DNA of 64,000 bases from Aerococcus sanguinicola (GTDB taxonomy: Bacteria > Bacillota > Bacilli > Lactobacillales > Aerococcaceae), in contig NZ_CP014160.1 in assembly GCF_001543145.1 (NCBI RefSeq), positions 1,426,001 to 1,490,000 on the forward strand, given 5' to 3'. Within the stretch, counting starts at the first letter, position 1. Each line of letters opens with the position of its first letter. The notes beneath the pieces are model-generated. The model did not search any database. It was not told the DNA's origin and was given only the letters and a program-made list of their open reading frames with translations. Shown piece by piece: positions 26,566 to 58,760 of this stretch. The translations under genes were made by a program, and so were the position numbers.

Positions 26566-27292
26566 CAGGGTGAGAGCAAGAGCGTTTAGCTTTGGATGCT
26601 TGGAGTAAGTCGGAATAAGAGCAAGCAAGGCTTGCACGTTTCCGACTTGCGAAAGCACGCCAAAGCTGCTCTTGCGAACCCAACTAAACCAGGGTGTGAG
26701 GGCTGGCGCTAGCTTTTTTTCACTGGAGCAAGTCACCAGAGTAGTCCGCAAGACTACGGCGGAGACTTGTGAAGTGACACGAAAGCTGCCAGACCAAACC
26801 CAACTAAACAGGGTGTGAGACTTGGCGGTTAGACTCGGATGATTGGAGCAATTAAGAATAAGAGCGAAGTATACGCTCGTTTCTTAATTGTGAAATCACT
26901 CCGAGTCTGCCAAGTCGAACCCGACTAAACCAGGGTGTGAGCAAGAGCGTTTAGACTTGAATGATTGGAAGCTCACCGAAAAAGTCTGGCGCTAGTCAGA
27001 CATTTCGATGAGCTGAAATCACTTCAACTCTACTCTTGCGAACCCAACTAACCAGGGTGTGAGAGGATGCGGGAGAAAGGGACCTCTGGATCAACAGTCC
27101 AGAGAAGTCTAAAAGACTTCGGCGGACTGTTTTGAAGAGGACTCCTTTCTGCATCCTCGAACCCAACTAAAACAGGGTGAGAGCAGTTGCGTTCAGACTT
27201 GAATGACTGGAGGCCAAACGGAAAAGAGCGGCTTTAGCCGATCATTCCGATTGGCTGAAGTCACTTCAAGTCTGCAACTGCGAACCCAACTA
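26566..27292 (+). repeat. Array A: six ~120-bp palindromic repeat units
   Basis: Units 26566-26686, 26690-26806, 26809-26927, 26931-27050, 27053-27169 and 27173-27292. Each begins CAGGGTGTGAG (or GGGTGAGAG) and ends CGAACCCRACTA, with a long interrupted stem between. Arm sequences differ between units but stay complementary. A 5' bulge (GTTT, GGTT, GGG) and an asymmetric internal loop (TGGAG opposite GTGAA) recur. No U-run follows, so these are not plain terminators. The array fills the whole interval between the F420-ligase-fold gene and the SixA-like gene. Confidence 0.9.
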
Positions 27293-27305
27293 AAGGAGCT
27301 AATTT

Positions 27306-27839
27306 ATGTCATTCTTTCAATCATTGAAATCTTTTTTGGCCCCTGAAGAAAGCAAAGCAAGTGCGACAGGAAAAGGCCAAGCTAAAGACCAAGCAATTGC
27401 TCATTACTTGCTGATCATCCGTCACGGTAGACCCGATTATGAGGCGAATCCTGCTGATCCGCCCTTGTTGGCGGGGGAAGCAGCTTACCTAAAAGATCGT
27501 TACCAGGAATTTGAAGACCGCTTGAGCCCCTTTAACATTCAAATCTTATCCTCCCCCCTCAGCCGGGCTCAGCAAACTGCTCAAGCCTTCCAAGAAGCCC
27601 TTGCCCAATCTTCTAATTTAGAGATTGCGGAAAGTTCAGATCTAGGAGGAGAAGCGGCTATTAAGGACTGGATGCAAGAAAGACAGGCCTTGGTCCTTGT
27701 CGCCCATGAACCTTATGTGAGTGCTTGGCTCCGTCGTTTTGGGGGCTCTTCCCATGACTTTGACAAGGGGGATGCTGCCCTCCTTGCGATCGATGAGGAA
27801 GGTAAGGGCCGTCTCGTTAAATACATTAAAGCACATTAA
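27306..27839 (+). CDS. Histidine phosphatase superfamily protein, SixA-like
   Basis: A 177-aa protein with the RHG active-site motif (LLIIRHGRPDYEANP), SSPLSRAQQTAQ (second phosphate-pocket Arg) and LVAHEPYVSAWL (catalytic His), as in SixA phosphohistidine phosphatases. About 35 N-terminal residues are Lys/Ala-rich and precede the domain. AAAGGAG comes directly after the last repeat unit, nine bases before the ATG. The natural substrate (phospho-HPr-type or metabolite) is not determinable. Confidence 0.85.
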   Translation: MSFFQSLKSFLAPEESKASATGKGQAKDQAIAHYLLIIRHGRPDYEANPADPPLLAGEAAYLKDRYQEFEDRLSPFNIQILSSPLSRAQQTAQAFQEALAQSSNLEIAESSDLGGEAAIKDWMQERQALVLVAHEPYVSAWLRRFGGSSHDFDKGDAALLAIDEEGKGRLVKYIKAH

Positions 27840-27862
27840 TTAATAGAAGAGGAGTAGCTGAT

Positions 27863-28846
27863 ATGCGATCTAGCCATTTTCGTTACCATGATAAGACACT
27901 AAGCAACGACCAAGAACCAACTATCCTGTGTGGCATTGTCAATGTCACCCCTGACTCCTTCTCAGATGGTGGCCAGTACAATAGCGTTGATAAGGCTGTC
28001 GCCCAGGCCCAGAAATTGATCAAAGAGGGAGCGGGGATGATCGACATCGGCGGGGAATCGACCCGGCCAGGCAGTACTTATGTCGCCATTGAAGAAGAGA
28101 TCAATCGGGTGGTCCCTGTGATCAAGGCCCTCAAGGAAGTGACGGATGTCCCACTTTCTCTGGACACTTGGAAGGCGGATGTCGCTGAGGCTGCGATTGA
28201 AGCTGGTGTCGATATCATTAATGACATCACGGGCTTCTTAGGCGATCCACGAATGGCTGAAGTGGTGGGTCAGTCCCAGGCAGGGGCAATCCTGATGTTT
28301 AACCCTGTTACCGCTCGGCCTGACCATCCCGGCTCGCAAAAATTCCCGGAATTTGGGGACCAAACAGTCTTTACAGATGAAGAAAAAGCAGCCTTCAAGG
28401 AGATGCCAATTGAAGACGTCATGATGGCCTACTTGGACAAGAGTTTAGAACGCGCCCATGAAGCGGGAATTGATGATGACCGGATCATGTTAGACCCTGG
28501 CATTGGTTTTGGTTTGACCAAGCGAGAGAATCTCAGCTTGATTCAAAAGATGGGTCTCCTCCATGATAAAGGCTATTGGATCTTCTTGGGTGTTTCCCGC
28601 AAACGTTTCATCCAGAATATGGTGGAAGAAGCCGGCTATAATGTGGATGTGTCAACTGAGGAAGGATTTGAAAACCGGGATGAAGCCTCAGCCGCCCTGT
28701 CTACTATTGCAGCTCGGCAGGGGATTGAAGTTGTCCGTGTCCATACCATGGCCCACCACCGGATTGCTTGTCAGATTGGCGATGCAGTTCGCTTAGCCGA
28801 CCAGATGGAAGATGTCAACTTTGGAGCTTATGCTGATAAGAAATAA
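27863..28846 (+). CDS. folP: Dihydropteroate synthase
   Basis: A 327-aa TIM-barrel enzyme condensing p-aminobenzoate with hydroxymethyl-dihydropterin diphosphate. Motifs: IVNVTPDSFSDGG, DIGGESTRPGS, DPGIGFGLTKREN, LGVSRKRFI and VVRVHTMAHH. Longer than the usual ~280 aa owing to an insertion of about 40 residues (near TARPDHPGSQKFPEFGDQTV). No other folate genes are adjacent; folP is probably in an operon with the SixA-like gene. An AbgT-type transporter lies 11 kb away and may bear on pABA-glutamate supply. Confidence 0.93.
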   Translation: MRSSHFRYHDKTLSNDQEPTILCGIVNVTPDSFSDGGQYNSVDKAVAQAQKLIKEGAGMIDIGGESTRPGSTYVAIEEEINRVVPVIKALKEVTDVPLSLDTWKADVAEAAIEAGVDIINDITGFLGDPRMAEVVGQSQAGAILMFNPVTARPDHPGSQKFPEFGDQTVFTDEEKAAFKEMPIEDVMMAYLDKSLERAHEAGIDDDRIMLDPGIGFGLTKRENLSLIQKMGLLHDKGYWIFLGVSRKRFIQNMVEEAGYNVDVSTEEGFENRDEASAALSTIAARQGIEVVRVHTMAHHRIACQIGDAVRLADQMEDVNFGAYADKK

Positions 28847-28852
28847 GGAGCG

Positions 28853-28882
28853 AAAGGACGAGCTAGGGCTTGTCCTTTTTTT
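28853..28882 (+). terminator. folP terminator
   Basis: AAAGGACGAGC / GCTTGTCCTTT stem followed by TTTTTTTCTTT. Confidence 0.85.
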
Positions 28883-28984
28883 CTTTAAGACTTATTAAGG
28901 CTTAGCCAAGGGTTCAACCTAGCTTTTTTGATTTAAACAGGTGATAATAAGGCTAAAAAGAATTTATGTGAAAGGAAGACTGTT

Positions 28985-29887
28985 ATGAAGAACTTGATGA
29001 TTATTGTGAATCCCACATCAGGTGATAACCAAGGGGCTTCTTACGCCCAACAATTGAAAGAAAAGTTGGCCCCTCACTTTGACCAAGTAGAGCTTATGGA
29101 GACTGAGGGCGATGGGGATGCGACCGATTTTGCCCGCCAGGCTTGTGAAGAAGGCTATGATAGTGTTTATGTGATCGGTGGGGATGGGACCATTAATGAG
29201 GTGGTCAATGGCATCGCTGAACAAGACCACCGGCCCAAGATGGGTTTTCTGCCAGGTGGAACCAACAATACCTATGCCCAGCTCTTTAACATGTCCAACG
29301 ATATTGAAGAGAGTATCGAACAGATTAACTTGGAAGAAGTTCGAGCCGTCGATATCGGCAAGTGTAATGATACCTATTTTAGCTATTACGCTTGCTTTGG
29401 CGAGATGATTGATGCGACGACTTCTACGAGTTCAGAAGAGAAGGAACGCCTGGGAACCCTCGCCTATGCCAAAAATATTGTAAAAGCACTGCCCAATGAC
29501 CAAGTCCACGAGCTTCAAATCAAATCGGATACGGAATCGTTTGAAGGCAAGGCCAGCCATGTCTTTGTTCTCTTAACCAACCAGGTCGGGAACTTGCGCT
29601 TCTCTAAGAAGAAGGTCAGCCTCCAGGATGGGGAATTCGATGTCGTAATTGTGACGGATGAAGGTTTGGGGGCTAAATTGTCGGCTCTCAAGGATATGGT
29701 CTTTGGCCAATTGAATGAGAATGAAAACATTACCGCTTTCACTTGCCGGGAACTTTCCATTACTTGCCCCGACAAAGAAGACATCCAGCTCGACTTGGAT
29801 GGGGATATGGGACCTAAGCTCCCTGCTCAAATAAAAGTCCTCCCCCAACATATCCAATTCTATGTCCCAGAAGCTATGGAGGATTAG
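28985..29887 (+). CDS. Diacylglycerol kinase-family lipid kinase (YegS/DagK-like)
   Basis: A 300-aa soluble kinase of the DAGK_cat family. IIVNPTSGDNQG and VIGGDGTINEVVNGI (the GGDGT nucleotide motif), and LPGGTNNTYAQLF, are diagnostic; the C-terminal domain carries the structural-metal acidic residues (DLDGDMGPKLP). Known roles are recycling diacylglycerol from lipoteichoic acid synthesis, or sphingoid/phosphatidylglycerol phosphorylation; which applies is unclear. AAAGGAAG precedes the ATG. Confidence 0.88.
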   Translation: MKNLMIIVNPTSGDNQGASYAQQLKEKLAPHFDQVELMETEGDGDATDFARQACEEGYDSVYVIGGDGTINEVVNGIAEQDHRPKMGFLPGGTNNTYAQLFNMSNDIEESIEQINLEEVRAVDIGKCNDTYFSYYACFGEMIDATTSTSSEEKERLGTLAYAKNIVKALPNDQVHELQIKSDTESFEGKASHVFVLLTNQVGNLRFSKKKVSLQDGEFDVVIVTDEGLGAKLSALKDMVFGQLNENENITAFTCRELSITCPDKEDIQLDLDGDMGPKLPAQIKVLPQHIQFYVPEAMED

Positions 29888-29901
29888 TGTCTGGTAAAGC
29901 A

Positions 29902-30048
29902 CTGTGACAAAAGTTGCTTAGTCTTTTGCCAAAAGCTTTGTGCAGGAGCGGAGCGCTGAGGTTGACCCTTCAAGGGACAAATTCAAAAGGGCAAGGGATT
30001 CTCACAAATACAATCTATTTAAGAAGTTAGGCTTTTGTTCTAGCTTCT
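29902..30048. repeat. Short interspersed repeat with inverted ends (family 2)
   Basis: CTGTGACAAAAG at the left and GCTTTTGTTCTAGCTTCT at the right match the ends of 22899-22995; the interior differs and is longer. Confidence 0.55.
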
Positions 30049-30086
30049 TTTTCTATGGAGAGCTTATCGGCAAATAATGAAAAAGC

Positions 30087-30116
30087 TTACAAGTGAAAGC
30101 GATAACGTGTTATAGT
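30087..30116 (+). promoter_or_regulatory. Promoter of the corrinoid operon with internal cre site
   Basis: -35 TTACAA (30087-30092), 18 bp, extended -10 TGtTATAGT (30108-30116). TGAAAGCGATAAC (30094-30106) fits the CcpA cre core TGNAANCGNWNNC completely, and it lies between the boxes, where CcpA binding would block transcription. Confidence 0.78.
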
Positions 30117-30145
30117 AGAGAAGACGAAATAAAGGGGGAGCAATC

Positions 30146-30811
30146 ATGCGTTCAAAAGAAGAATTAATCCAAGAATTGTCGGATATGGTCTTTGAGATGG
30201 AGGATGAAGAGATTATCGATACAGCTGAGGAGTATGTCCAAGCAGGTTATGATGTTCAGGATGCCATCATGGAAGGCTTAGTAGATGGGATGAGCCGGGC
30301 TGGCGTCCTCTTCGCTGAAGAAGAGTACTATGTGACCGATGTCCTGATCTGTTCGGATGCCCTAAATGAAGCCATGGCTATCTTTAAGCCCCTCTTGTTG
30401 GAACGCAAGGAAGAGGGCGGCCAGGCCCGCCATAAAATTATTTTTGGGACAGTAGAGGGGGATACCCACGATATCGGTAAGAACCTGGTCAAGGTCATGC
30501 TCGAAGTGGGTGGCTTTGAAGTGATCGACATGGGGCGTGATGTGCCACTGGATGATTTTATCGACCGGGCCATCGAGGAAGAGGCGGAATTGATTGGTCT
30601 TTCCGCCCTGATGACTACGACCATGACAGGGATGAAGACCTTGATTGAGCGCTTGGAAGAGCGGGGCGTCCGTGACCAGTTCAAGGTGATGATTGGTGGC
30701 GGGGCGGTTTCTCAGTATTATTGCGATGAAATTGGGGCGGATGGCTATTCTGAAGATGCCATTGAAGCCGTTGAATTAGCCAAACGTTTAGTTGGAGAAG
30801 GCGAGGATTAG
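30146..30811 (+). CDS. Corrinoid (methyltransferase) protein, MttC/MtbC type
   Basis: A 221-aa cobalamin carrier. An N-terminal helical cap domain (about 1-90) precedes a Rossmann B12 domain with GDTHDIGKN, where His108 is the lower cobalt ligand; GLSALMTTTM and IGGGAVSQYYCDEIGADGYS complete the site. It shuttles a methyl group between methyltransferases. First gene of the operon, with an AAGGGGGAG ribosome site and a cre-controlled promoter. A corrinoid protein with its activator and UroD-type methyltransferases forms a complete methyl-transfer module, unusual for a lactic-acid-type organism. Confidence 0.92.
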   Translation: MRSKEELIQELSDMVFEMEDEEIIDTAEEYVQAGYDVQDAIMEGLVDGMSRAGVLFAEEEYYVTDVLICSDALNEAMAIFKPLLLERKEEGGQARHKIIFGTVEGDTHDIGKNLVKVMLEVGGFEVIDMGRDVPLDDFIDRAIEEEAELIGLSALMTTTMTGMKTLIERLEERGVRDQFKVMIGGGAVSQYYCDEIGADGYSEDAIEAVELAKRLVGEGED

Positions 30812-30821
30812 GAGGGGTCTT

Positions 30822-32609
30822 GTGGTGAAGATTCAGGTTCAAGCTTGGGACCAGGTGGTAGACTATGATCCGGCGTCAGGGAAAAGTCTCTACGCCTGTT
30901 TGGTCGAAGCCGGTTTGCCGGTGCCTGGCGATTGTGGGGGCAAAGGCACTTGTGGCAAGTGTCGTTTTAAGCTCTTGGAAGGTGAGCTGGCGGCTGAGGC
31001 TTACCAGGGTCTGGCGGGCAAGTATCCGCTAGCCTGCCGGGCGCGGCCTCAATCCGATTTGCGCCTGGCTTTTCTTAATATGGAAAGGGACCACCGGATC
31101 TTAGTCACGGGAGACCGTCTCGCTCTGACTGGGCCTAAACGCTGGCGCCAAGCCAGTTTTAAATTGGACCGGGACTTGCTTCAAGCGGGGGCAGATTTAG
31201 AGACCCGCCTGGTGCAAGAGCTGGACGTTTCATCCTTTCCTGCGCAAGTCTGGCAGGGGCTTGAAATCGAGCGTAATCAAACTTACCGGGCCATTATCTG
31301 TGATGACCGAGTCCTGGCCCTCGACCTGCAAGCGGAAGATGCACGGATTTATGGCTTGGCTGTGGATATCGGGACGACCACCCTAGCTGCTAGCCTCATC
31401 AACTTAGAGACCGGGGAGGAAGTCAGCCAGGCTTCTGCCCTCAACCCGCAAATCCAACAGGGGGCGGATGTCTTGAACCGGATTTCTTATGTCATGACGG
31501 AAGGGGGGCGCGGTCTGAAGCAGCTCCAACAAGCCATTAGACGGGCCATCCAGAGCTTAATCGATGAGCTCTGCCAGGAAGCAGATTGCCCTGAAAGTGC
31601 GGTTTATGGCCTCAGTTTGGCCGGCAACACCGTTATGACCCACCTTGCTTTGGGGATCGATCCGCGTCCGCTGGGCCAGTCGCCCTACCTGCCGGTTTTT
31701 CGTTCCGGGCAGCAACTCTCCGCTAAAGCATTCGGCCTGAGAAAAATTCCTAGCTCGGCCCAGGTCATGACCCTGCCGGCAGTTTCGGCCTATATTGGGT
31801 CGGACGTGGTCGCTGGGGCCTATGCGGCTGGCTTTAGTGAGCTTGGAAAGCGCCGGCTCTTGATTGATATTGGGACCAATGGGGAGATGTTAGTCCAAGA
31901 TGGGGACCGTTATGTGTCTTGTTCCTGTGCCGCCGGGCCAGCCTTGGAAGGGATGATGATTTCATCTGGCATGAAGGCGGCTGCAGGAGCAGTTGAGGAA
32001 TGTTTATGGCAGGATGGTCAATTTGACCTCCAAGTGATTGGTGGAGGAAAGCCCCAAGGTTTGTGTGGCAGTGGCGTCCTCGCCCTGATCCGGGAAGGCT
32101 TGCGGGCGGGTCTGATCAGCTACCGGGGGCGGATTATTGATCCGGAGTCTTTAGCCCCAGATGATGCCCGCCGACCTTATCTCAAAGTCGATGACCAAGG
32201 TAAACGCTCTCTCCAAGTGGCTTCCCAAGTTAGCCTGACCCAGCACGATATCCGCCAGGTTCAACTGGCCAAGGGAGCTATTCGCTCAGGGGTGGAAGTC
32301 CTCTTGGAAGCAAGCCAGCTGGAAGCTGAGCAGATCGACCAGGTCCTTGTGGCGGGGCAATTTGGTCGGCATTTGGCGGAGGCCAGTCTGATCAAGACCG
32401 GCCTCTTACCGGAAGGCTTTGCGGGCCATCTCTCATATATTGGGAACTCGTCCCATAGTGGGGCCTATCTTTACCTGATGGACCAAGATGCCGCCCAGGG
32501 CTTAGAAGCCCTCGCCCGGCGGATTGATTATATTGAATTATCGCGCTTAGACGACTATGACCGTGTCTTCGCTCGGGCATCACTTTTTCCAAAATTAAAA
32601 AGAAAGTAG
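30822..32609 (+). CDS. Reductive activator of corrinoid proteins (RACo-type)
   Basis: A 595-aa iron-sulfur ATPase. The N-terminal 2Fe-2S domain has Cys38, Cys44, Cys47 and Cys72 (CGGKGTCGKC...LAC). A linker is followed by an ASKHA ATPase domain (GLAVDIGTTTLAASLINLET; LIDIGTNGEMLV; GPALEGMMISSGMKAAAGAV; LVAGQFGRHL). It returns accidentally oxidised Co(II) to Co(I) using ATP. The start is GTG at 30822 (or 30825) behind AGGAGG; the frame to 30792 overlaps the corrinoid gene without a ribosome site. It is 10 bases after the corrinoid gene and clearly its partner. Confidence 0.9.
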   Translation: MVKIQVQAWDQVVDYDPASGKSLYACLVEAGLPVPGDCGGKGTCGKCRFKLLEGELAAEAYQGLAGKYPLACRARPQSDLRLAFLNMERDHRILVTGDRLALTGPKRWRQASFKLDRDLLQAGADLETRLVQELDVSSFPAQVWQGLEIERNQTYRAIICDDRVLALDLQAEDARIYGLAVDIGTTTLAASLINLETGEEVSQASALNPQIQQGADVLNRISYVMTEGGRGLKQLQQAIRRAIQSLIDELCQEADCPESAVYGLSLAGNTVMTHLALGIDPRPLGQSPYLPVFRSGQQLSAKAFGLRKIPSSAQVMTLPAVSAYIGSDVVAGAYAAGFSELGKRRLLIDIGTNGEMLVQDGDRYVSCSCAAGPALEGMMISSGMKAAAGAVEECLWQDGQFDLQVIGGGKPQGLCGSGVLALIREGLRAGLISYRGRIIDPESLAPDDARRPYLKVDDQGKRSLQVASQVSLTQHDIRQVQLAKGAIRSGVEVLLEASQLEAEQIDQVLVAGQFGRHLAEASLIKTGLLPEGFAGHLSYIGNSSHSGAYLYLMDQDAAQGLEALARRIDYIELSRLDDYDRVFARASLFPKLKRK

Positions 32610-32617
32610 AGGAGATT

Positions 32618-33679
32618 ATGATGAAAGAAATGACAGCAAATCAACGTTGGCAGGCTCTAAAGGCTGGGGAAAGTCTCGACCGGCTCCCAATTACCCTCTG
32701 CCACGCTGGTTTTGCCGCTAAATTAGCGGGGATGAATTACCGGGAGAGTTTTAATACGGCGGATAAATTAGCCAAACGTGAGCTCACCATCTATCGTGAA
32801 TTTGCTTTAGATGCCTTGTCTGTGAGCTATACTTCGGTTAACTTTGCCATCCGCCACCGGTCTAAGATTAAGAGCCCGCGTGAGTCCGCGCCTTCAGTAG
32901 CTGACCATGCCCTCAAGAGCTTAGACCAAGTGGATCAATTGAAGGTTGAGGCGACGAGTTTCGACCGGGATATCTCCCAACGGATCAACTTGGAAGCTCT
33001 GGATAAGATTGACGGGGCAGTAGGGTCAAAATGCCACCCCTGCTACTGTATTTCCGCGCCGTTTACCCTTGCGTCAGGCATCTATCCCGCCGAGAAGATG
33101 CTGCGGGCGACGCGTAAGGATAAGGAAGGGCTCCACCGCCTCTTGCGCTTTGTGACCGACCGGGTGAAGGAAATTATTGAGCGGGCGGTTCAAATGCCGG
33201 ACTTGAATTTCTTTATCTATGACCCAGTGGCTTCGGGCGCTTTGATTAGCCCTAAGCAATACCGAGACTTTGTCCTTCCCTATACTAAGGAAATGGTAGA
33301 CTTCATTAAGGCCCATGACCGCTGTGTGGGGATGCACATCTGTGGGGATATCAGCAACCACCTTGAAGCCATTGTGGAGACGGGCGTGGATATGATCAGC
33401 CTTGACCAAACCGTTGACCTAGGCCAAGCCAAGGAAAAAGTGGGCCAAGCGATTGCTTTGATGGGCAATGTTGACCCGGTGCGGTGCTTCCTCCAAGGCA
33501 GTCCTGAAGAAGTTAGCCAGGCAGTTGAAGATTGTTTTGCCAAAGCAGGGGACAATCCAAGAGGCTTTATTATTCGCTCGGGCTGCCAATTGCCCGTGGA
33601 TACCCCAGTAGCTAATGTGGAGGCCTTTATGGAAACTGCTGTCCCCTGTGCCCAAAAAGCGGCGCAAAATTGGGCCTAG
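32618..33679 (+). CDS. UroD-family corrinoid methyltransferase (MtaA/CmuA-like), zinc type
   Basis: A 353-aa member of the uroporphyrinogen-decarboxylase-fold methyltransferases. Zinc ligands are His240 and Cys242 (GMHICGD) and Cys323 (RSGCQLP), as in MtaA/MtbA, which move methyl groups between a corrinoid protein and a thiol or other acceptor. FIYDPVASGALISPKQY lies in the substrate region. ATG 32618 or 32621 may be used; GGAG ends at 32614. With a second zinc paralogue downstream, one may demethylate the substrate and the other deliver the methyl to the acceptor. Confidence 0.85.
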   Translation: MMKEMTANQRWQALKAGESLDRLPITLCHAGFAAKLAGMNYRESFNTADKLAKRELTIYREFALDALSVSYTSVNFAIRHRSKIKSPRESAPSVADHALKSLDQVDQLKVEATSFDRDISQRINLEALDKIDGAVGSKCHPCYCISAPFTLASGIYPAEKMLRATRKDKEGLHRLLRFVTDRVKEIIERAVQMPDLNFFIYDPVASGALISPKQYRDFVLPYTKEMVDFIKAHDRCVGMHICGDISNHLEAIVETGVDMISLDQTVDLGQAKEKVGQAIALMGNVDPVRCFLQGSPEEVSQAVEDCFAKAGDNPRGFIIRSGCQLPVDTPVANVEAFMETAVPCAQKAAQNWA

Positions 33680-33681
33680 CC

Positions 33682-35609: not shown

Positions 35610-35636
35610 TTTTTAGTCTTTTTTAGGATTGATTCG

Positions 35637-35645
35637 TGCTATAAT
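35637..35645 (+). promoter_or_regulatory. Extended -10 promoter of the metallopeptidase gene
   Basis: TGcTATAAT, about 54 bases before the start codon. Confidence 0.65.
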
Positions 35646-35698
35646 AAAGGTAAAATAAAGGGCTTGCATATTAAGCACATAAGAGATGGGGGATTCTG

Positions 35699-36756: not shown

Positions 36757-36837
36757 GCAGAAGTGGCGGAATGGCAGACGCGCTGTCTTCAGGCGGCAGT
36801 GTCTAACGACGTGTGGGTTCGACTCCCATCTTCTGCA
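36757..36837 (+). tRNA. tRNA-Leu (anticodon CAG)
   Basis: 81 bases. Acceptor GCAGAAG / CTTCTGC with discriminator A; anticodon stem CTGTC/GGCAG around TTCAGGC (anticodon CAG); a long class II variable arm (GTCTAACGAC); T-arm TGGG-TTCGACT-CCCA. CCA is not encoded. A repeat unit begins five bases later. Confidence 0.95.
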
Positions 36838-36842: not shown

Positions 36843-37045
36843 CAGGGTGCGAGAAAGAGCGCTTAGCTTTGGATGCTTGGAGTAAGTCAGAATAAGGGCA
36901 AGCACCGCTTGCACGTTTCTGACTTGCGAAAGCACTCCAAAGCTGCTCTTTCGAACCCGACTGAACAGGGTGTGAGAGGATCCCTTTCTGCCTTTGCAAA
37001 CCCGACTATAGGGTGCGAGAAAGAGCTTCAGTTGAGGCTCTTTTA
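36843..37045 (+). repeat. Array B: one full palindromic repeat unit and two remnants
   Basis: The full unit 36843-36963 resembles 26566-26686 but with compensatory differences in two arms. 36966-37008 is a deletion derivative keeping both conserved ends (GGGTGTGAG, AACCCGACTA). 37008-37045 is a start fragment (GGGTGCGAGAAAGAGC) whose arm re-pairs with GCTCTTT and is followed by T-rich DNA, making a terminator. Confidence 0.85.
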
Positions 37046-46314: not shown

Positions 46315-46473
46315 ACCAACACTCCTTTTCTATTATTTCAGTTTCGATATATTTTTATTATAACGAAAATCATAGCAAAAAACGAATGAAACGCTTGGCG
46401 AATGATAAGAAAAATATGTTTTGTCTGTTTTCCGCATTGGCTAATTCATACAGACTGGCTCAGCTGACTTGGT

Positions 46474-46750
46474 CCAGTGAAGGAAAGCTAAGCGCGTGCC
46501 CTCACACCCTATAGTCGGGCTCGACTTGGCAGGCTTGGAGTGATTTCACAAGTAAGGAAGGAGCGAATACTTCGCCCTTATCCTTACTTGCTCCAATCAT
46601 CCAAGCCTAACCGCCAAGTCTTACGCCCTTGTAGTCGGGTTCGCAAAGGCAGAAAGGGCGTGACTTCAGCAAAGTGGAACGATCGGCTAGAGCCGCTCTT
46701 ATCCTCTTTGCCTCCAGTCATCCCTTTCTAAGCGCCTTTGCTCACACCCT
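46474..46750 (-). repeat. Array C: two full palindromic repeat units and one partial
   Basis: Minus-strand units 46632-46750 and 46512-46629, plus a half unit 46474-46510. The 46512 unit parallels 26809-26927 with paired compensatory changes in two arms. The rightmost unit overlaps the 3' end of the permease gene and provides its last six codons and stop. 46315-46473 upstream of the hydroquinone-reductase gene contains nothing else recognisable. Confidence 0.88.
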
Positions 46751-47387
46751 TATTAAGATACTGGGTGGTTTGGGAGAGGGTGTAGCAGATGAGCCAGTAC
46801 ATGATAGTGACGAGGGCGAAGGTGCCGAGGATGTAGCTGGAGTTTTGGCCGTAGATGATGCGGGCGTTGTGCATGAGTTCGGGCAGGGAGATGATGGTAG
46901 CTAGGCTGGTGTCCTTGATGAGGGCAATGAGCTGGCTGACGATGGAGGGGGCCATGGTTCGGTAGACTTGGGGCATGATGATATAGGCCATAGTTTGGCT
47001 GCGGCTGAGCCCGGTTGCCAGGCCGGCTTCGAATTGTCCTTTAGGCAGGGCCAGGATGCCGCCCCGGATAATTTCTGAAATCATAGCCGATTCAAAAAGG
47101 GTCATGGCGGCTACAGCTGCCCAGAAGATATCCATTTTGATTCCGATTTGGGGCAGGGCGAAGTAAGTAAAGAAGATAATTAACAAGAGGGGGAGGTTGC
47201 GAACAGTGTCGATGAGAAAGCCCAGCACGTTAGAAATAATGGGCATCTTGAGATAGCGGAGGATACCGAGGAGGCTGCCGAAGAATAGGCTGAGGCTAAT
47301 GGTGAGTAAGGTGAGTTTGACCGTTACCCAGAGGCCTTGGAGGAGGAAGTTGATATTAATCCATTGGAAAGCACCGGAAAAGTCCAT
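46728..47387 (-). CDS. Amino-acid ABC transporter permease (second subunit)
   Basis: A 219-aa His/Glu/Gln-type permease with about five transmembrane segments and the EAA loop (ILALPKGQFEAGLATGLSRS, MAYIIMPQVYRTMAPSIVSQ). Last gene of the ABC operon. Its C-terminal GVSKGA and stop codon are encoded by a repeat unit, so the original end was overwritten. It should pair with the permease at 47408 and the ATPase at 48894. Confidence 0.9.
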   Translation of the reverse strand: MDFSGAFQWININFLLQGLWVTVKLTLLTISLSLFFGSLLGILRYLKMPIISNVLGFLIDTVRNLPLLLIIFFTYFALPQIGIKMDIFWAAVAAMTLFESAMISEIIRGGILALPKGQFEAGLATGLSRSQTMAYIIMPQVYRTMAPSIVSQLIALIKDTSLATIISLPELMHNARIIYGQNSSYILGTFALVTIMYWLICYTLSQTTQYLNKGVSKGA

Positions 47388-48878: not shown

Positions 48879-48893
48879 GAGATGGCCTCCTGA

Positions 48894-49674: not shown

Positions 49675-49703
49675 ATAATAGCATAAATTAGGGCTATGTA
49701 TAA
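49675..49703 (-). promoter_or_regulatory. Promoter of the amino-acid ABC operon
   Basis: Leftward TTATAC (complement of 49698-49703), 17 bp, TATTAT (complement of 49675-49680) with an extended TG. Confidence 0.6.
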
Positions 49704-49869
49704 GTGAATTTCCATACAAGTTATTTATTTCACAATAAATGGGCCCTATGTATTAGGTGTTAAGTCAAGCTAAGCCTAATGAAAAGAGGAGTCTAAGGGC
49801 TTGAATTCAGGCTCGAAAGCATGTAGGGTAGAGATATTGAAATGTAAAGGATAGAAAGGATATGCTGCT

Positions 49870-50757: not shown

Positions 50758-50790
50758 GCTTTAAATTCAAGATATGTATGCTACAAGAAG

Positions 50791-50861
50791 AGACTGGGAA
50801 AAATTCCAGTCTTTTTTGTTTGGGCTCCAGTCATTCCTTGCTGAATGCCTGTGCTCACACC
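50791..50861 (+). terminator. Terminator followed by a repeat-unit remnant
   Basis: AGACTGG / CCAGTCT stem then T6 (50791-50817). Immediately after, 50821-50861 (GGGCTCCAGTCATTCC ... TGTGCTCACACC) is the outer half of a minus-oriented unit of the ~120-bp repeat family. Confidence 0.75.
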
Positions 50862-50890
50862 TTTTTTTACAAAAAGAGTGCTTCTGCCTG

Positions 50891-50899
50891 TGCTATACT
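50891..50899 (+). promoter_or_regulatory. Extended -10 promoter of the ClC gene
   Basis: TGcTATACT, 31 bases before the start codon. Confidence 0.6.
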
Positions 50900-50929
50900 A
50901 AGAGTAGTTTATTTCAAGGAGGGATTGTG

Positions 50930-52474: not shown

Positions 52475-52537
52475 GCCGATTATTTATAAAGACAAAACAA
52501 TAATGTATTGCAAAAGAAAATAAGCAATTATTCGTCT

Positions 52538-52574
52538 AAAAGAACGAGCGCTTAGAAAGTGCTTGTTCTTTTTA
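52538..52574 (+). terminator. ClC terminator
   Basis: AAAGAACGAGC / GCTTGTTCTTT stem (wobble) followed by TTTATTT. Confidence 0.75.
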
Positions 52575-52757
52575 TTTGGTAAACATTTTATGAAAGGGGT
52601 GTTTAACCAGTGATTGGGCTAATGTAATTTTTAGGTAAAAGAAATGTAAATCTTTCATGAAAAATCCCCAGATGGAATAAAAATTTGCTAGGCTATAAGT
52701 GTCTAAAATTTTATGTTTTCAGACGATAAAATACGATTAATTGGAGGTATACTTGTA

Positions 52758-53474
52758 ATGTTAGGAACTCAGACTTTGGTGGCCGATTTTTCTGTGACCG
52801 AGGACCTAGAAGCTCTTTACAAGCGAGCTAAACGTGTAAAGACGCTGAATCTTCGCGAGCAGGTGGTCTATCTCCACTACCAAGCAGATGCTGACCGCAA
52901 GGCTGGTCGTACCTTGGTGGTATGTAGTGACGGGTCAATCTTTAGGACCCAATCAAAGCCGGAAATCCTGATCCAGAATTATAGCGAGCGGATGGCTAAG
53001 GAACAGTTCTTCCATCAGAAACTGACAAAGAAACCTTTTCAGCCTGTCGTGAGTGCGGACTTGATTTTTGTTCCCTTGAAATCTGTTAAGCGGGGCACTC
53101 CTTCCTGGCTAGCCCTCCACCAGGTTTACCGCCTGCCTAATTTGAAGGAGAAGAGTCGCCACACCATTGTGGAGGGCATGACCAATATCCACCTAACTCT
53201 CGATGTGCGTCCCAGCCGTTTTATTCACTTGGTGAGACAGGCTTATTTTAGCTGGGTCTTTCTCAATATGTCAGTTCTCTTGCATACACCTAAGCAGCCC
53301 TCTTATTTCAAAATAGAGGATTTAGAAAATAGTCACCTCTTCCAAAGAATGCGCTATACTGAAGCTTCTGACCAATTTAGTGAGCTCTACCAAACAGCTG
53401 AAGAAATTCACAGGGAGCGCTACAGTGAACAACTGGAGCTCTGGCACGAACGGGTCTTAGACTTTATCCATTAG
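52758..53474 (+). CDS. comK: ComK-like competence transcription factor
   Basis: A 238-aa protein. The core KKPFQPVVSADLIFVPLKSV, GTPSWLALHQVYRL and EGMTNIHLTLDVRPSRFIHL matches the layout of ComK (pattern KxPI...FxFPT...WI.xxHV...NG...L.vSy), though similarity is low and the protein is longer than B. subtilis ComK (192 aa). The start is ATG 52758 with GGAGG ten bases upstream; ATG 52713 lacks one. If correct it would activate DNA-uptake genes. Lactobacillales usually use ComX/SigX, so the call is tentative. Confidence 0.6.
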   Translation: MLGTQTLVADFSVTEDLEALYKRAKRVKTLNLREQVVYLHYQADADRKAGRTLVVCSDGSIFRTQSKPEILIQNYSERMAKEQFFHQKLTKKPFQPVVSADLIFVPLKSVKRGTPSWLALHQVYRLPNLKEKSRHTIVEGMTNIHLTLDVRPSRFIHLVRQAYFSWVFLNMSVLLHTPKQPSYFKIEDLENSHLFQRMRYTEASDQFSELYQTAEEIHRERYSEQLELWHERVLDFIH

Positions 53475-53515
53475 ATTAAAGTGTGCTATAGTAAAGGGCG
53501 AAAGGAGGCTCAGCT

Positions 53516-54559
53516 ATGGCAAAGAAGAGCTATCAAGGCCCAGTGCGGCTCTCAGACTTATCCGGTGATCATGTGAAAAAAGCCTCTGCTGACCAAGCTA
53601 AGAGACCAAGTCAGCAGAAGGAGAAGCCCCGCCCGGCTCAAGATTTGGTCCAAGCGGCGCAAGCGCTGAAAGCAAAAAAGTTAGATCAAAAACCGCAGCG
53701 TCCGGGAACAGACAATGACCAGGAAAAGTCTGAAGAGGCAGGGCTGTCCGGTGAAATTACCAAGATTGAAGCGCAAAAGCGGCGCAAACATCGCTTTAAT
53801 ATTTATCTCAACCAAAGCTATGCCTTTCCTGTAAGTGAAGCGACCCTGGTTAAGTTTGCTTTGGCCAAGGGTCAGGTCTTAAGTGCTGAGCGAGTAGGCG
53901 AGATCCAAGCAGCTGAAGCCGCTGCCCAGGCTTATCAGACAGCAGTGAATTATCTGAGCCACCAATTGCGTTCGGAGAAGGAGATCCGTCAACGGCTCCA
54001 GCGGGATGATTGGCCTGAAGGGGTGATTGACCAAACCATCCAGCGCTTAAAAGAACTGCGACTCGTCGATGACTTGGTCTATGGCCAGTCCTATACCCGG
54101 ACGGCCATGCGCCTGCAGAAGAAGGGTCCCGGTCAAATTCAGCGCAAACTAAAGGAAAAGGGCCTCAGCGAGTCGATCATCCAACAAGCTCTGGAGGAGT
54201 ATGATGACCAAACTGCCCAGGATAATATTGAAGAACTGGCGGCTAAACGTTTGAAGCAACAAATGCGAAAATATGCCCAGCGCGATAGCGAACAGCGCAC
54301 AGTGCGCTATTTGATGCAGAAGGGCTTCGATAGTGATGCAGCCAAGCAAGCGGTCCAAAGAGCGAGTCAAGACCTTGTTGATGACGATCTAGAAGATGAT
54401 AAATTGGACCAGCAAGGCCAGAAGTACTGGCGCAAGTACCGCCGCCTAGACCCTAAAGAGCGCTATTTTAAAGTTAAACAACAGCTTTACCGCCGGGGCT
54501 TTGAAGCAGGGGCGATTAAGCAATGGCTAGACCAAGAGATGGAGAAAGAAGAGGGATAA
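53516..54559 (+). CDS. recX: RecX regulatory protein
   Basis: A 347-aa RecX with three-helix repeats (VNYLSHQLRSEKEIRQRLQR, IQRLKELRLVDDLVYGQSYT, KGPGQIQRKLKEKGLSESII). Residues 1-75 form an added Lys/Gln-rich low-complexity tail absent from shorter homologues; the true domain begins near EITKIEAQKRRKHRFNIYLN. It modulates RecA filaments. GAAAGGAGG precedes the ATG. mutY follows after one base. Confidence 0.88.
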   Translation: MAKKSYQGPVRLSDLSGDHVKKASADQAKRPSQQKEKPRPAQDLVQAAQALKAKKLDQKPQRPGTDNDQEKSEEAGLSGEITKIEAQKRRKHRFNIYLNQSYAFPVSEATLVKFALAKGQVLSAERVGEIQAAEAAAQAYQTAVNYLSHQLRSEKEIRQRLQRDDWPEGVIDQTIQRLKELRLVDDLVYGQSYTRTAMRLQKKGPGQIQRKLKEKGLSESIIQQALEEYDDQTAQDNIEELAAKRLKQQMRKYAQRDSEQRTVRYLMQKGFDSDAAKQAVQRASQDLVDDDLEDDKLDQQGQKYWRKYRRLDPKERYFKVKQQLYRRGFEAGAIKQWLDQEMEKEEG

Positions 54560-54560
54560 T

Positions 54561-55808
54561 TTGCAGATACAAGACCATAAGCCCGAAGATTGGTTGGGGC
54601 GGAGTGCCATTGAAGACTTGGGACCAGATATCCACGGCGTTCAAGTCTGGGGACCTAAGACCAATGAGAAGTTTCAGACCACTTTGCTGGATTGGTATGA
54701 CCAACATGGCCGCACCCTTCCTTGGCGCGAATCGATATCAGCTTATGCCGTTTGGGTCTCCGAAATCATGCTCCAACAGACCCAGGTGGACACGGTTATC
54801 CCTTACTATCAGAACTTCATGCAAAAGTTCCCGGATATTCAATCCTTGGCCCAAGCTGGAGAAGCGGACCTATTAAAGGCTTGGGAAGGCTTGGGTTATT
54901 ATTCTCGGGTTCGCAATATGCAGGTGGCTGCCCAAACAATTATGGACGATTATGATGGTGAGTTTCCCAGTGACTTAAAGGAAATCCAATCACTTAAGGG
55001 GATTGGTCCTTATACAGCAGGCGCCATTGCTTCGATTGCTTTCAATGTTGCGACGCCAGCTATCGATGGCAATGCCATGCGGGTCTTCGCCCGGCTTTTT
55101 ACAGTGAGTGCAGACATTGCCCAGGCTAAGAACCGGAAGATTTTTCAGGCATTGGGCGAGTATCTCGTGGATCCTAAACGTCCAGGTGATTTCAACCAAG
55201 CCATTATGGACCTGGGTTCGAGTTATCAAAGGGCCAAGGATCCTAATCCAGAAGCCAGCCCCCTAAGAGACTTCAACCTATCGACTTTAACGGGGACGAC
55301 CTTGGATTATCCTGTCAAAAGCAAAAAAGCCAAGGCCAAGCATTACTACTATGATGCCTTGGTATTGGAAGATAAAGCTGGGCGGGTCCTTATCTGCCAG
55401 CGCCCCGAGACGGGTTTATTGGCTAAGATGTGGACCGTCCCCCTCCTTGAGCGCAAGGAGGCGGCTAAAGAAGACATGCCACTCGGTCCTCTCTTCGCCG
55501 ACCAAGTGGCTGAAGACGACCAGGCGATCTACGACAATTTACTTGCCGAAAGCCAAGCCCACTACCATGTCAGTCCTATCTTCTACAAGCGCCAGCTCGC
55601 CGAAGTCAAACATGTCTTCAGCCACCAAGTCTGGCACATCCGCGTCTACCAAGGCCAACTAAAGGAAGACCCTGACCAAGTCATCGACCGCTTAACCAAG
55701 CAAGGAGCCAGCAACTGGTCCTGGCTCAAACTCAGCGACATGACCCAGCATGCCTTCCCCACCGTCCAAATGAAAATCTGGCAAGCCTATGAAAAGAACA
55801 GGGTGTGA
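54561..55808 (+). CDS. mutY: A/G-specific adenine glycosylase lacking the iron-sulfur cluster
   Basis: A 415-aa MutY removing adenine opposite 8-oxoguanine. Catalytic Glu in VSEIMLQQTQV, helix-hairpin-helix LKGIGPYTAGAIASIAF, and catalytic Asp in AIDGNAMRVFARLF are present, plus a C-terminal NUDIX-like recognition domain (YYYDALVLEDKAGRVLICQR). The usual four-cysteine 4Fe-4S loop after MDLGSSYQRAK is absent: that stretch has no Cys. Clusterless MutY is known in some lactic-acid bacteria. The start is TTG 54561, coupled to recX. Its last two codons and stop lie in a repeat unit. Confidence 0.92.
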   Translation: MQIQDHKPEDWLGRSAIEDLGPDIHGVQVWGPKTNEKFQTTLLDWYDQHGRTLPWRESISAYAVWVSEIMLQQTQVDTVIPYYQNFMQKFPDIQSLAQAGEADLLKAWEGLGYYSRVRNMQVAAQTIMDDYDGEFPSDLKEIQSLKGIGPYTAGAIASIAFNVATPAIDGNAMRVFARLFTVSADIAQAKNRKIFQALGEYLVDPKRPGDFNQAIMDLGSSYQRAKDPNPEASPLRDFNLSTLTGTTLDYPVKSKKAKAKHYYYDALVLEDKAGRVLICQRPETGLLAKMWTVPLLERKEAAKEDMPLGPLFADQVAEDDQAIYDNLLAESQAHYHVSPIFYKRQLAEVKHVFSHQVWHIRVYQGQLKEDPDQVIDRLTKQGASNWSWLKLSDMTQHAFPTVQMKIWQAYEKNRV

Positions 55809-56210
55809 GCAAGAGCGGTTAGACTTGAATGACTGGAGCCCAAGCGGAAAAGAACGGCTTTAGCCGATCGTTCCGATTGGGTGAAGTCACTTCAAGCCTG
55901 CTCTTGCGAACCCGACTACACAGGGTGTGAGGGAGCGCGGGTAGAAGTGGACCTCTGGAGCAAAAAGCTTGAGAAGGGTGCAAGCCTTCGAAAGATTTTT
56001 TGTGAAGAGGAGCCACTTCTGCGCGACCGAACCCGACTAGAACAGGGTGTGAGAGGATGCGGTAGAAAGGGACCTCTGGAGTAAAAGACCAGAGAAGGCT
56101 GGAGGCCTTCGATGGGCATTTGCGAAGAGGAGCCCTTTCTGCATCCTCGAACCCGACTAAGCAGGGTGTGAGACTTGGCGTTCAGGCTTGGATGACTGGG
56201 AGCAAGCAGG
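55799..56210 (+). repeat. Array D: three full palindromic repeat units and one partial
   Basis: Units 55799-55918, 55921-56039 and 56043-56159, then a truncated unit from 56162 to about 56210. All begin CAGGGTGTGAG and the full ones end CGAACCCGACTA. Inner arms differ between units (for example AGAAGTGG/CCACTTCT against AGAAAGG/CCTTTCT). The first unit supplies the mutY stop codon. Confidence 0.9.
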
Positions 56211-56255
56211 TAACCAGCGAAAGCCCCAAAGCAATCAGTTAATAAGAGACAAAGC

Positions 56256-56288
56256 AAAAAGGCTGAGCTTTAAAACTCAGCCTTTTTT
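56256..56288. terminator. Terminator of the Ntdp-type gene, bidirectional
   Basis: AAGGCTGAG / CTCAGCCTT stem with U-runs on both strands. Confidence 0.8.
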
Positions 56289-56331
56289 ATGAACTTTCGA
56301 ATACTTCACAATCAAATCGAAAGGGCGACAG

Positions 56332-56898
56332 CTAGTGCTGGCGGCGCTTTTTCTTATGCTGTTGTTGGCGCTGGCTTAGCTGGCAATAACGTTCATACCA
56401 CAAGTCTACATAGGCCTTAGAGAAGGGGCCTTTGCCTTCTTCAATCCAGCGGTTCAATTCATAGAGATGGCAAGTGACGATATAGTCTATATCGTAAGGA
56501 TAGGCCATCTTTCGACCATGGTCGAGGTATTCATCTACATCGAGTAACTTTTTATCGCCATTCGGAAAGACTTTGATATCTAAATCATAGTCAATGTATT
56601 TAAGGCCGTCCTTGTCCATAATATAAGGGGAAGCCAGGTTACAATAATACGATGTACCTTTTTGGCGGATCATCGTGACAATATTGAACCAGTACTTCTT
56701 ATGAAAATAGAGAAGGGCGGGCTCGCGTGTTACCCAGCGCCGACCATCGGATTCACTGACAAGGGTATGGTCATTACAAGCAATGATACTCTGATCAGAG
56801 GTCTTGAGCACCATACAATCATGCCAAGTGCGATGCAAACTGCCGTCATGTTTATAGCTTTTGACTGCGATGTATTCTCCTTCTTGAGGATTACGCAT
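56332..56898 (-). CDS. Nucleoside di/triphosphate phosphatase, DUF402 (Ntdp/YgaC) family
   Basis: A 188-aa protein closely resembling B. subtilis Yga[61 protein letters not shown] (continuing [11 protein letters not shown]) and [15 protein letters not shown]. The barrel holds metal-binding Asp/Glu residues (DYDLD). It hydrolyses NTP/NDP. The start is ATG 56898, behind AAGCAGG; ATG 56919 has no ribosome site. The C-terminus is Gln/Lys-rich ([12 protein letters not shown]). Confidence 0.88.
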
Positions 56899-57068
56899 CA
56901 AAAAACCTGCTTTCTGCATCAGTATTCAATCTTATTCTTAAATAGTATAACATAGCTTGGCTAAAAATAGAATTTTTAATTAGAAATTATTAAAGAGAGT
57001 CTGCTGTTCGATTAGCTAAATTTTTATGCTACAATAAATGGAAAGAATATAAACGAGGAGTTAGATTT

Positions 57069-58337
57069 ATGAGGGAATTCAACAAGAAAAGCCTGCTAGC
57101 CATGCTAGCGACAGTGGTTGTCGGTTTCATCATTATTGGCGGGTCCTATGTGATTGGCCAGCGGCGAGAAGAGGCGCGTTTGGCCGAGGAAACAGCGCTC
57201 TTCCAGGGACATAACCAAGGAGAGCAAAAGACAGATCAAGCACCCAGTCAGTCGGGTTCGTTAGACCAGGCGGCAGCAGATTTTGAACAGAACCGTGAGA
57301 ACACAACAGCAGCTAAATATTTGGCCTATGTCAACCGGGAAGCGGACCAAGTCGGCGTCTTAGCTGTGGATTCGCTCAACCAAACCGCCGATTGGTTGGA
57401 AACGGCAGTAGCTGGTCTCAAGGATAAAGGTTTTGACCAGCTTGCCGTTAATAAGTTAAACTACAGTGGCATGTCAACTGCAGATCTCTTAGCCAGTGGC
57501 TATGCCCAACAAGTAGCCGATAGCGAGGGTCAACTTATCTTAGTTCCCCTGAACCTGGCGGCTGAGGCCCAGGCTGGGATCGATGAAGCGGGAAGTAAAG
57601 CGAATATTGAACGCATTTATCGCCAGCTACGTTTGGCCAAACCTGAAGCCCTACCGATTTTTGTTATTAGTCCTAGCTTGAATAATGACGAAGATAGTGA
57701 TGCCTATAAGGATAAGATCGCTAAGGTCCTCGATGATTTGAACTATAACTATTACGATATGTGGGCTGATTTCAAGGATAAGTTAGCAGCTGACGACTTA
57801 AACTTGGAAGAACTTTATTCTGAGGATGGGCAATTGACCAACCAGGGGGCAGACTTATGGAGTCGATTGCTGACTAAGGAACTAAGCGAAACCACAATCG
57901 ATGCCCGCCACGGTTTCAAGGGCAAAAATGATGATCTCGACCAACTAAAAGAGGCCGAAGCCAAAATTAGAGACGAGGAAGCCCGCGCCCAAGCGGAAGC
58001 GGAGGCCCAGGCACAAGCCCAAGCGGCTGCCCAATCAGAAGCAGCAGCTGAGTCTTCAAGACGGGCAGAGTCAGAAGCCCAAGCAGCTAGCCAATCGCGT
58101 GCCCAAGCTAGTCAGGCCGCTCCAGCCCAGGGCCAGCAAGGCAATTGGAACGCGAATGGCAATCAAAATTATCAAAACAATCAAAATAACCAGCAGAACA
58201 ATTGGAATGCGAATGGCAACCAAGGTAGCTATAACCCGGCTAACCAGTGGCAAGGGTCCGGTGGTAATCAGCAATACGGTAACGGCAATGCGAATGGTAA
58301 CCAAGGAAATGCTAATTGGGGAGCACAGAGACAATAA
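57069..58337 (+). CDS. Membrane-anchored SGNH-like protein with Q/N-rich tail
   Basis: A 422-aa surface protein. One N-terminal transmembrane signal anchor (LLAMLATVVVGFIIIGGSYV), an acidic linker, an alpha/beta domain (about 85-280: VGVLAVDSLNQTADWLETAV, LYSEDGQLTNQGADLWSRLL) like extracellular SGNH/GDSL-type proteins, an Ala/Glu coiled coil (about 290-350), and a low-complexity tail of Asn/Gln/Gly with NWNANGNQ repeats. Catalytic residues are not obvious. The tail resembles prion-like or cell-wall-binding linkers. Probably cell-envelope associated. Confidence 0.7.
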   Translation: MREFNKKSLLAMLATVVVGFIIIGGSYVIGQRREEARLAEETALFQGHNQGEQKTDQAPSQSGSLDQAAADFEQNRENTTAAKYLAYVNREADQVGVLAVDSLNQTADWLETAVAGLKDKGFDQLAVNKLNYSGMSTADLLASGYAQQVADSEGQLILVPLNLAAEAQAGIDEAGSKANIERIYRQLRLAKPEALPIFVISPSLNNDEDSDAYKDKIAKVLDDLNYNYYDMWADFKDKLAADDLNLEELYSEDGQLTNQGADLWSRLLTKELSETTIDARHGFKGKNDDLDQLKEAEAKIRDEEARAQAEAEAQAQAQAAAQSEAAAESSRRAESEAQAASQSRAQASQAAPAQGQQGNWNANGNQNYQNNQNNQQNNWNANGNQGSYNPANQWQGSGGNQQYGNGNANGNQGNANWGAQRQ

Positions 58338-58371
58338 TAAGATTCAGTAGACAATGTAGAGAATTAAAGTC

Positions 58372-58402
58372 AAAAGGCCTTTCCTTAGGGGGAGGCTTTT
58401 TA
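58372..58402 (+). terminator. Possible terminator after the SGNH-like gene
   Basis: AAAAG-CCT / AGG-CTTTT imperfect stem followed by TTTT; merges with the first repeat of array E. Confidence 0.5.
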
Positions 58403-58760
58403 GTTGGGTTCGGTCGCGCAGAAGCGGCTCCTCTTCACAAAGCGCCGTCGAAGACTTTCAGTCTTCTCTGGTGCTTTGCTCCAGAGGTCCACTTCTACCC
58501 GCGCTCCCTCACACCCTTCCTAGTCGGGTTCGACTTGGCAGCTTTCGTGTCACTTCACAAGTCTCCGCCGCAGTCTATGAGACTGCTCTGGCGACTTGCT
58601 CCAGTGAACGAAAGCTAACCGCCAAGTCTCACACCCTTTCCTAGTTGGGTTCGCAAAGGCAGAAAGGGAGTGACTTCAGCAAAGTGGAACGACCGGCTAA
58701 AGCCGCTCTTATCCTCTTTGCCTCCAGTCATCCCTTTCTGGACGCCTTTGCTCACACCCT
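58401..58760 (-). repeat. Array E: three full palindromic repeat units
   Basis: Minus-oriented units 58401-58517, 58521-58637 and 58642-58760, each starting (plus strand) TAGTYGGGTTCG and ending CTCACACCCT. They belong to three subtypes seen in other arrays (compare 55921, 26690 and 46632). Unlike arrays A-D they are antisense to both flanking genes. Confidence 0.9.

Follow-up and report, generated by a model that had tools for sequence, protein, structure and literature searches.

A family of 120-base repeats with predicted long hairpin folds in Aerococcus sanguinicola, a likely non-autonomous mobile element found mostly behind stop codons

The window analysed in this study is a stretch of 64,000 nucleotides (nt) of the Aerococcus sanguinicola genome (contig NZ_CP014160.1, positions 1,426,001 to 1,490,000), and it contains 15 full copies, called units here, of a palindromic repeat. 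The units are 116-122 nt each and lie, together with several fragments, in five arrays of six, one, two, three and three full units; all 15 had already been placed in these arrays by an initial annotation made from the letters of the sequence. Array I (plus strand) begins directly 3' of the stop codon of the open reading frame at 25356-26564 and consists of units at 26566-26687, 26692-26807, 26809-26927, 26931-27050, 27053-27169 and 27173-27292, the last of which is followed directly by AAGGAG, resembling a ribosome-binding site, ahead of an open reading frame at 27306. Array II (plus strand) is found just 3' of a transfer RNA (tRNA) gene (36757-36837), and comprises a full unit (36843-36963), a collapsed unit with both ends kept and the interior gone (36966-37008), and a decayed fragment with the arms AAAGAGC/GCTCTTTT (37010-37045), the latter two being read directly from the sequence. 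The surviving arms and the T-run of the decayed fragment resemble an intrinsic terminator, and it is possible that the repeat has been reused as one. Arrays III and V (46474 and 58401 in the initial annotation) are on the minus strand. In array III, full units at 46512-46630 and 46632-46751 are accompanied by a 5' fragment at the distal end (46459-46510), and the open reading frame at 46728-47387 enters the second of these units and has its stop codon inside it. Array IV (plus strand) has units at 55799-55918, which provides the stop codon of the open reading frame at 54561-55808, 55921-56039 and 56043-56159, and is closed by a 5' fragment (56163-56210) next to a terminator-like hairpin. Array V consists of units at 58401-58518, 58521-58638 and 58642-58761, and has no adjacent sense stop codon. 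We also found a lone 5' fragment on the minus strand (50798-50861, model positions 4-71) that was absent from the earlier list.

The predicted fold of every unit is a single long hairpin, with a GGGT/ACCC foot, a GTGA/GA loop and, further inward, an 8-bp outer stem, a 3-4-nt 5' bulge, stems of 8 and 5 bp, and a GGA/GA loop that is followed by the inner stem and the apical hairpin. The predicted folds bear out the fixed layout described earlier for the units (stems, 5' bulge, asymmetric loop and apical hairpin). The common ends that had been proposed were broadly confirmed, except that the 5' end varies (GGGTGTGAG, GGGTGAGAG, GGGTGCGAG and GGGCGTAAG were found) and that one unit has CAAACCC near its 3' end. 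RNA folding energies were 5.2-9.6 standard deviations (sd) below those of shuffled sequences in eight folds (six units in their own orientation and two reverse complements), and DNA folding energies were 4.6-9.2 sd below in five folds. Since, in addition, the exact end pattern occurs 28 times genome-wide and not once (0) when read backwards, the units are not chance structures. When the window was searched against Rfam 15, only two tRNAs reached the curated cut-off, in agreement with the initial annotation, in which no described family was recognised; over array I, there were four weak sub-threshold matches, the best of which was to a microRNA model (E = 0.033, 21 bits against a cut-off of 87).

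For the analysis of covariation, 285 distinct units of A. sanguinicola and its sister species were aligned by sequence only, and G statistics with average product correction (APC) were compared with those of 20 tree-based null alignments. Eight column pairs scored above every null score, and all eight (8/8) are predicted base pairs, while 25 of the 33 predicted pairs, near-invariant ones among them, were not above the tree null. This statistical test, which the initial annotation had named, supports its proposal that selection has acted on a folded RNA or DNA hairpin. The paired arm changes on which the proposal was based were also seen, namely CAAGAGC/GCTCTTG at 26566 against AAAGAGC/GCTCTTT at 36843, and AGACTCGGA/TCCGAGTCT with AATTAAGAA/TTCTTAATT at 26809 against AGGCTTGGA/TCCAAGCCT with AAGTAAGGA/TCCTTACTT at 46512. 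In structure-fitted alignments, which lean toward the structure that they count, 97.5% of 5100 cells were paired, compared with 68.9% in shuffles, and both-sided changes occurred in 27 of the 34 pairs (both for the best 150 of 210 matches). The corresponding values for other genomes of the genus and four other genera were 94.0% and 60.0% (110 distinct rows from eight genomes).

The pairs in the stems that are not Watson-Crick pairs are skewed. G.T was observed 195 times and A.C 22 times in the A. sanguinicola genome (53 and 22 when the two most skewed columns are omitted), and 165 and 59 times in the other genomes. Because G.T would read A.C on the opposite strand, it is apparently the sense strand that folds. 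One G.T wobble is kept in 117 of the best 150 of 210 matches. Arm-correcting gene conversion, which had been offered as an alternative to selection, explains this wobble and the arm pattern poorly, because the asymmetric loops are conserved and the wobble is retained; we thus disfavour it.

The host genome is a single contig of 2.03 Mb (hereafter G000; the sister species is G001). A covariance model built from the 15 units of the window, as had been suggested, gave at least 150 matches in this genome. The profile search, which covered the window and 80 of 95 hit clusters, gave 226 non-overlapping matches in 92 arrays, consisting of 199 full copies and 27 fragments; 12 further listed units fall in 10 clusters outside the profile search. 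Under stricter filters, which lose weak matches, 21 of 60 genomes including that of A. sanguinicola had a match: 11 of 15 in the genus (A. sanguinicola included), 8 of 21 others in the family and 2 of 24 in other families of the order. The units of other genera have the layout in common and very different arm sequences. Identical copies were present among the few units sampled in G025, G014 and G005, which suggests recent activity in these genomes. At the G025 loci L207, L211, L215, L219 and L227, near-identical units carry the same tail, which contains a terminator-like hairpin (GGGGCCGGGAG...CCCAGCCCC), and these tailed units look like a recent amplification of a longer form. In open-licence papers, we found no description of such repeats in Aerococcus, nor of mixed same-facing arrays of complete hairpins with a sense-strand stop-codon rule.

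The position of the arrays relative to genes was scored as the presence of an in-frame sense stop codon, preceded by at least 45 open codons, within -25 to +12 of the array start. Two mixed-strand arrays of the 92 and two G000 arrays without a full unit fall outside this test, as do 32 of the 66 arrays of G001, which have no full unit or are too near an edge. In the A. sanguinicola genome, 64 of 88 arrays begin -22 to +8 from a sense stop codon, whereas 11 of 88 do so in the antisense mirror, which by our estimate is about the chance yield of the TAG fixed at that end. The sister species showed the same tendency (25/34 arrays at a sense stop codon and 5/34 antisense). In the two species together, 71 of 122 array starts are at -1 to +8 of the stop codon, and a further 18 arrays rely on a stop codon within the unit, such as an open frame could also reach by chance. 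Seven other genomes, other genera among them, gave 27 of 47 arrays against 9 of 47 antisense; G014, in which the units are inside another repeat, was excluded from this count, and it scored 7 of 8 with stop codons inside the unit. Orientation was uniform in 90 of the 92 arrays, and the upstream open reading frame runs in the direction of the unit for 72 of 88. As each of the ten 200-kb bins with units has them on both strands, orientation follows the genes and not the chromosome strand.

No clear motif was detected upstream of the target stop codons in comparison with 314 control stop codons. TAA was more common at the target stop codons (62/75) than at the controls (178/314), partly because the unit itself brings an A, and at many 5' junctions there is a TA from the stop codon, the 3' end of the unit being ...CTA. 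In G026, a GGAG-type sequence resembling a ribosome-binding site follows the array end directly in seven of eight loci (L044, L062, L206, L210, L214, L218 and L226), and these arrays may lie between genes of operons. For one gene compared by eye in 10 relatives, the presumed ancestral site has a terminator-like hairpin preceded by a stop codon and an AT-rich stretch that varies in length; as a picture of the ancestral site, this one-gene comparison is no more than suggestive. Only two loci were obtained when genome contigs were scanned with one protein.

The units of an array are not particularly related to each other. Mean unit identity is 70% within arrays and 72% overall, and neighbours belong to the same cluster in 8 of 109 cases, where the cluster sizes predict about 20. 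Neighbours are thus no more alike than random units, and therefore the arrays are not simple tandem duplications. Copying of arrays in blocks was also considered and is not supported, since repeated neighbour order (216, against 197 with an sd of 24 in shuffles) was reached in 107 of 500 shuffles and so showed no excess. A 5' fragment of another unit trails 61 of the 88 arrays of A. sanguinicola and 25 of the 34 of the sister species; among the 58 measured, these fragments end at unit position 11-70, and one at 107.

Comparison with the sister species showed a rapid turnover of array contents. The identity between the two genomes is 92-95% across the six main pieces matched by a 15.5-kb query. 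Of 20 orthologous array pairs (29 orthologue rows minus repeats and rows without a G001 unit; alignment rows matching other, non-orthologous arrays were not counted), 11 have a unit in common when at least 85% identity is required (14 with a threshold of 80% and 10 with 88%). At some stop-codon arrays, such as L131/L167, the two species differ by one whole unit, which only one of them has. A difference between the two species at window position 53493 was considered as an insertion, and turned out to be complex and not clean. The clearest junctions were provided by a second repeat of about 190 nt, structured-looking and here called repeat B, which occurs at L076, L067, L005, L191 and other loci. 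In the sampled DNA of the two species, 34 unit-free copies of repeat B span the test site; none of the spanning copies is in the window. Three unlike units are found at one identical point of repeat B (AAGCAAGC|GATGTGAATT or AAGCAAGC|GAAGCGAATT), where each insertion consists of 1-3 filler bases plus AGGGT...ACTA, with neither duplication nor loss of the target. In another case, a unit sits within the apical stem of a second unit, and GACT is found at both junctions.

Our favoured explanation, to which we assign a probability of about 0.6, is that all of these units belong to a single family of 120-base repeats, probably a non-autonomous mobile element, and that the predicted hairpin of the folded sense strand would be what a mover recognises. 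Mobility is likely because the sister genomes differ by single whole copies, and such differences would be mostly gains by insertion, one unit per event. The structure would then be kept because it is needed for movement, the folded sense strand being moved either as RNA or as single-stranded DNA, since the contents of the arrays turn over too fast for a host function locus by locus. The preference for stop codons would result partly from the mode of insertion and partly from the removal of harmful insertions; the rarity of insertions inside genes can be understood from selection against them together with the ability of the unit to restore a stop codon. Selection against gene disruption leaves unexplained that the free 3' region is hardly used and that the orientation is fixed. 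Possibly, insertion is coupled to ribosome-free nascent RNA, which would be a source of the stop-codon preference. A more specific form of this idea, rather unlikely in our judgement, is that the unit is a mobile RNA-like hairpin directed to the place where translation ends, and that its folded sense strand inserts into an R-loop, a single-stranded stretch free of ribosomes that opens where they leave the message. Such targeting would explain the sense orientation, the place behind stop codons, and the sites behind terminators and the tRNA gene. If it were true, the element would be targeted by a stop codon and not by a DNA motif, and we know of no other mobile element with a target set in this way. 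Were movement to require both transcription and the folded strand, mobile DNA would be tied to translation termination.

Several observations weigh against the favoured explanation. None of the seven arrays scored as empty in the other species (5/19 and 2/24) showed a clean first insertion at an empty stop codon: three of them are clean and all in repeat B, one has a shrunken copy, one is complex, one has no interpretable alignment and one is unaligned. Furthermore, the turnover counts are blurred by runs of N, which interrupt at least two arrays of the G001 assembly. Growth at the gene-proximal end only is not supported, because in the 11 pairs with a shared unit 20 unshared units lie on its 5' side and 23 on its 3' side. 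As for the stop-codon rule, 24 of 88 arrays lack a sense stop codon next to them; by eye, four of these are in repeat B, five follow terminators (with T-runs upstream), one follows a tRNA gene and one is nested, and the rest may represent short open reading frames or real exceptions. The evidence for the folded strand is also not uniform. The number of pair types in the other genomes was not in excess (114, against 111 in shuffles, reached in 113 of 500), one pair in these genomes is reversed (A.C 24, G.T 0), and the sequence-only alignment gave a weaker skew (G.T 136, A.C 77). In conserved unpaired columns, C-to-T changes were 59 of 855 and G-to-A changes 57 of 2850, so that C-to-T mutation may contribute to the wobble skew. 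In addition, the tree null takes no account of recombination between units.

The search for a mover likewise weighs against it. The Y1 transposase (PF01797) had no match in the unit-bearing genomes G000, G001, G009, G012, G013, G014 and G032, and is present in 5 of the 15 genomes of the genus and in G018, G025 and G026. Reverse transcriptase (PF00078) was not found in the unit-bearing genomes G002, G005, G009, G010, G012, G013 and G032, and was found in G000 (one), G001, G006, G008, G014, G018, G025 and G026. The IS110 recombinase (PF01548) was not found in 13 of the 15 genomes of the genus, the exceptions being G002 and G004, and G004 has no unit match. None of the three candidates was retained, as the genes do not track the presence of units across genomes. 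Phage or plasmid origin is also not supported: there was no phage match, the exact junction pattern was not found in viral contigs, and one matching record is listed as a plasmid (of Aerococcus tenax), in which the region examined has many ribosomal protein genes, so that the record may be chromosomal.

Among other explanations, a role of the units as elements of the 3' untranslated region useful to the host has to be considered, in which the hairpin behind the stop codon would guard the end of the mRNA, block read-through or separate the genes of operons, and would be kept by selection. The strong stop-codon and sense-strand rule, the sense-strand wobble skew and the ribosome-binding-site-like sequences that follow array I of the window and seven of eight G026 loci are all consistent with such a role. 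We nevertheless regard it as doubtful, because units at the same genes turn over fast, which argues against a locus-specific host function, because units are also found inside repeat B, behind terminators and behind tRNA, and because 4 of the 15 genomes of the genus had no match, two of these being 85% complete. A classical miniature inverted-repeat transposable element (MITE), that is, a relative of an insertion sequence with an internal deletion, mobilised by the transposase of that insertion sequence via terminal inverted repeats with target duplication, would account for the high copy number, the presence/absence differences, the TA at many 5' junctions with the ...CTA 3' end, and the inverted GGGT/ACCC of the foot. 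The inverted repeat is only about 4 bp long and is then interrupted by a loop, the filler varies in length and the three repeat B junctions have no duplication, so that a classical MITE seems quite improbable; nor did a transposase-bearing copy with AGGGTGTGAG...RACTA ends come up, although the searches were for PF01797, PF00078 and PF01548 only and none was aimed at such an element.

Passive amplification, by which old hairpins would multiply through unequal recombination and replication slippage with their arms matched by gene conversion within the palindrome, is hardly credible. Palindromes are prone to slippage, and the fragments behind 61 of 88 arrays do show that loss events occur. On the other hand, array neighbours are unlike, single whole units occur at unrelated places, and the conserved wobble and asymmetric loops would have been erased by conversion. 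The repeats are regarded here as a probable mobile family, with an insertion mechanism that can be tested thanks to the large number of natural presence/absence differences. With this family, a large and deeply structured repeat is added to a bacterial group; if the hairpins serve the host instead, they would represent an abundant device in the 3' untranslated regions of many genes of one genome.

The units show likeness to several known systems. The attC sites of integrons are hairpins with conserved structure and variable sequence that are used as a folded single strand and occur in same-facing arrays. The Aerococcus units are also structured hairpins in same-facing arrays, but there are no cassettes between them, and their ends, as judged by eye, do not match the attC core. 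Group IIC introns insert behind terminator hairpins in a fixed direction; the units differ from them in that they are about 120 nt long with no intron domains noticed, and PF00078 was not found in the seven unit-bearing genomes named above. ERIC elements, which are enterobacterial, occur singly and are not known in tandem, whereas the Aerococcus units are in arrays.

In kind, the Aerococcus units belong with the small interspersed palindromic repeats such as BOX, RUP, SPRITE, REPIN and ERIC, and the following comparison refers to the parts of the cited papers that describe these repeats. Stem-loop repeats, stop codons supplied by BOX, and compensatory arm changes are already known (PMC3049150, PMC3116915). 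BOX, RUP and SPRITE of pneumococcus are intergenic repeats of a Firmicute with predicted RNA stem-loops; one genome has 125 BOX and 110 RUP, all three are overrepresented between convergent genes, and BOX supplies the stop codon for 36 of 58 overlapping coding sequences (PMC3049150). BOX has a modular A-Bn-C composition, RUP is an element of 107 bp, and terminal inverted repeats as well as target duplications are reported for both (PMC3049150). The Aerococcus unit is set apart from these, as described there, by being a complete hairpin with only a 4-bp GGGT/ACCC foot, by arrays that are chains of unlike units, and by three repeat B junctions without target duplication. REPs are palindromic extragenic repeats of about 20-60 bp with hundreds of copies and frequent compensatory arm changes, and are tied to the Y1 transposase RAYT (PMC3116915). 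In contrast to REPINs in that description, the Aerococcus unit is a single hairpin of 116-122 nt with conserved internal loops and no short paired REPs, and PF01797 was not found in the A. sanguinicola genome. The stop-codon, sense-strand rule looks sharper than that reported for BOX, RUP and SPRITE (PMC3049150) or REPIN (PMC3116915) in these parts. ERIC, or RU-1, is a 127-bp enterobacterial repeat of similar length and intergenic placement (PMC2759123, PMC2229807), and group IIC introns have a structured DNA target (PMC10190682).

Some other features were observed in the course of this work. Downstream of the unit array at L087, there are two more tandem arrays with a 41-nt period (L087:1762-1934 and 2091-2283), one of them a hairpin (AACCCACA...TGTGGGTT); two short cores of repeats of the 41-nt type gave 121 and 100 loose matches in 400 kb, counted without a chance control. 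In the window, an integrase of the phage type (PF00589), a Prim-Pol protein and a helix-turn-helix protein are encoded in the region 9710-18785, where a tRNA gene also lies (18713-18785), and this region looks like a small integrated satellite element. A large open reading frame at window positions 3-2531 has a collagen-flanked surface repeat domain (PF19079) and 15-nt tandem repeats.

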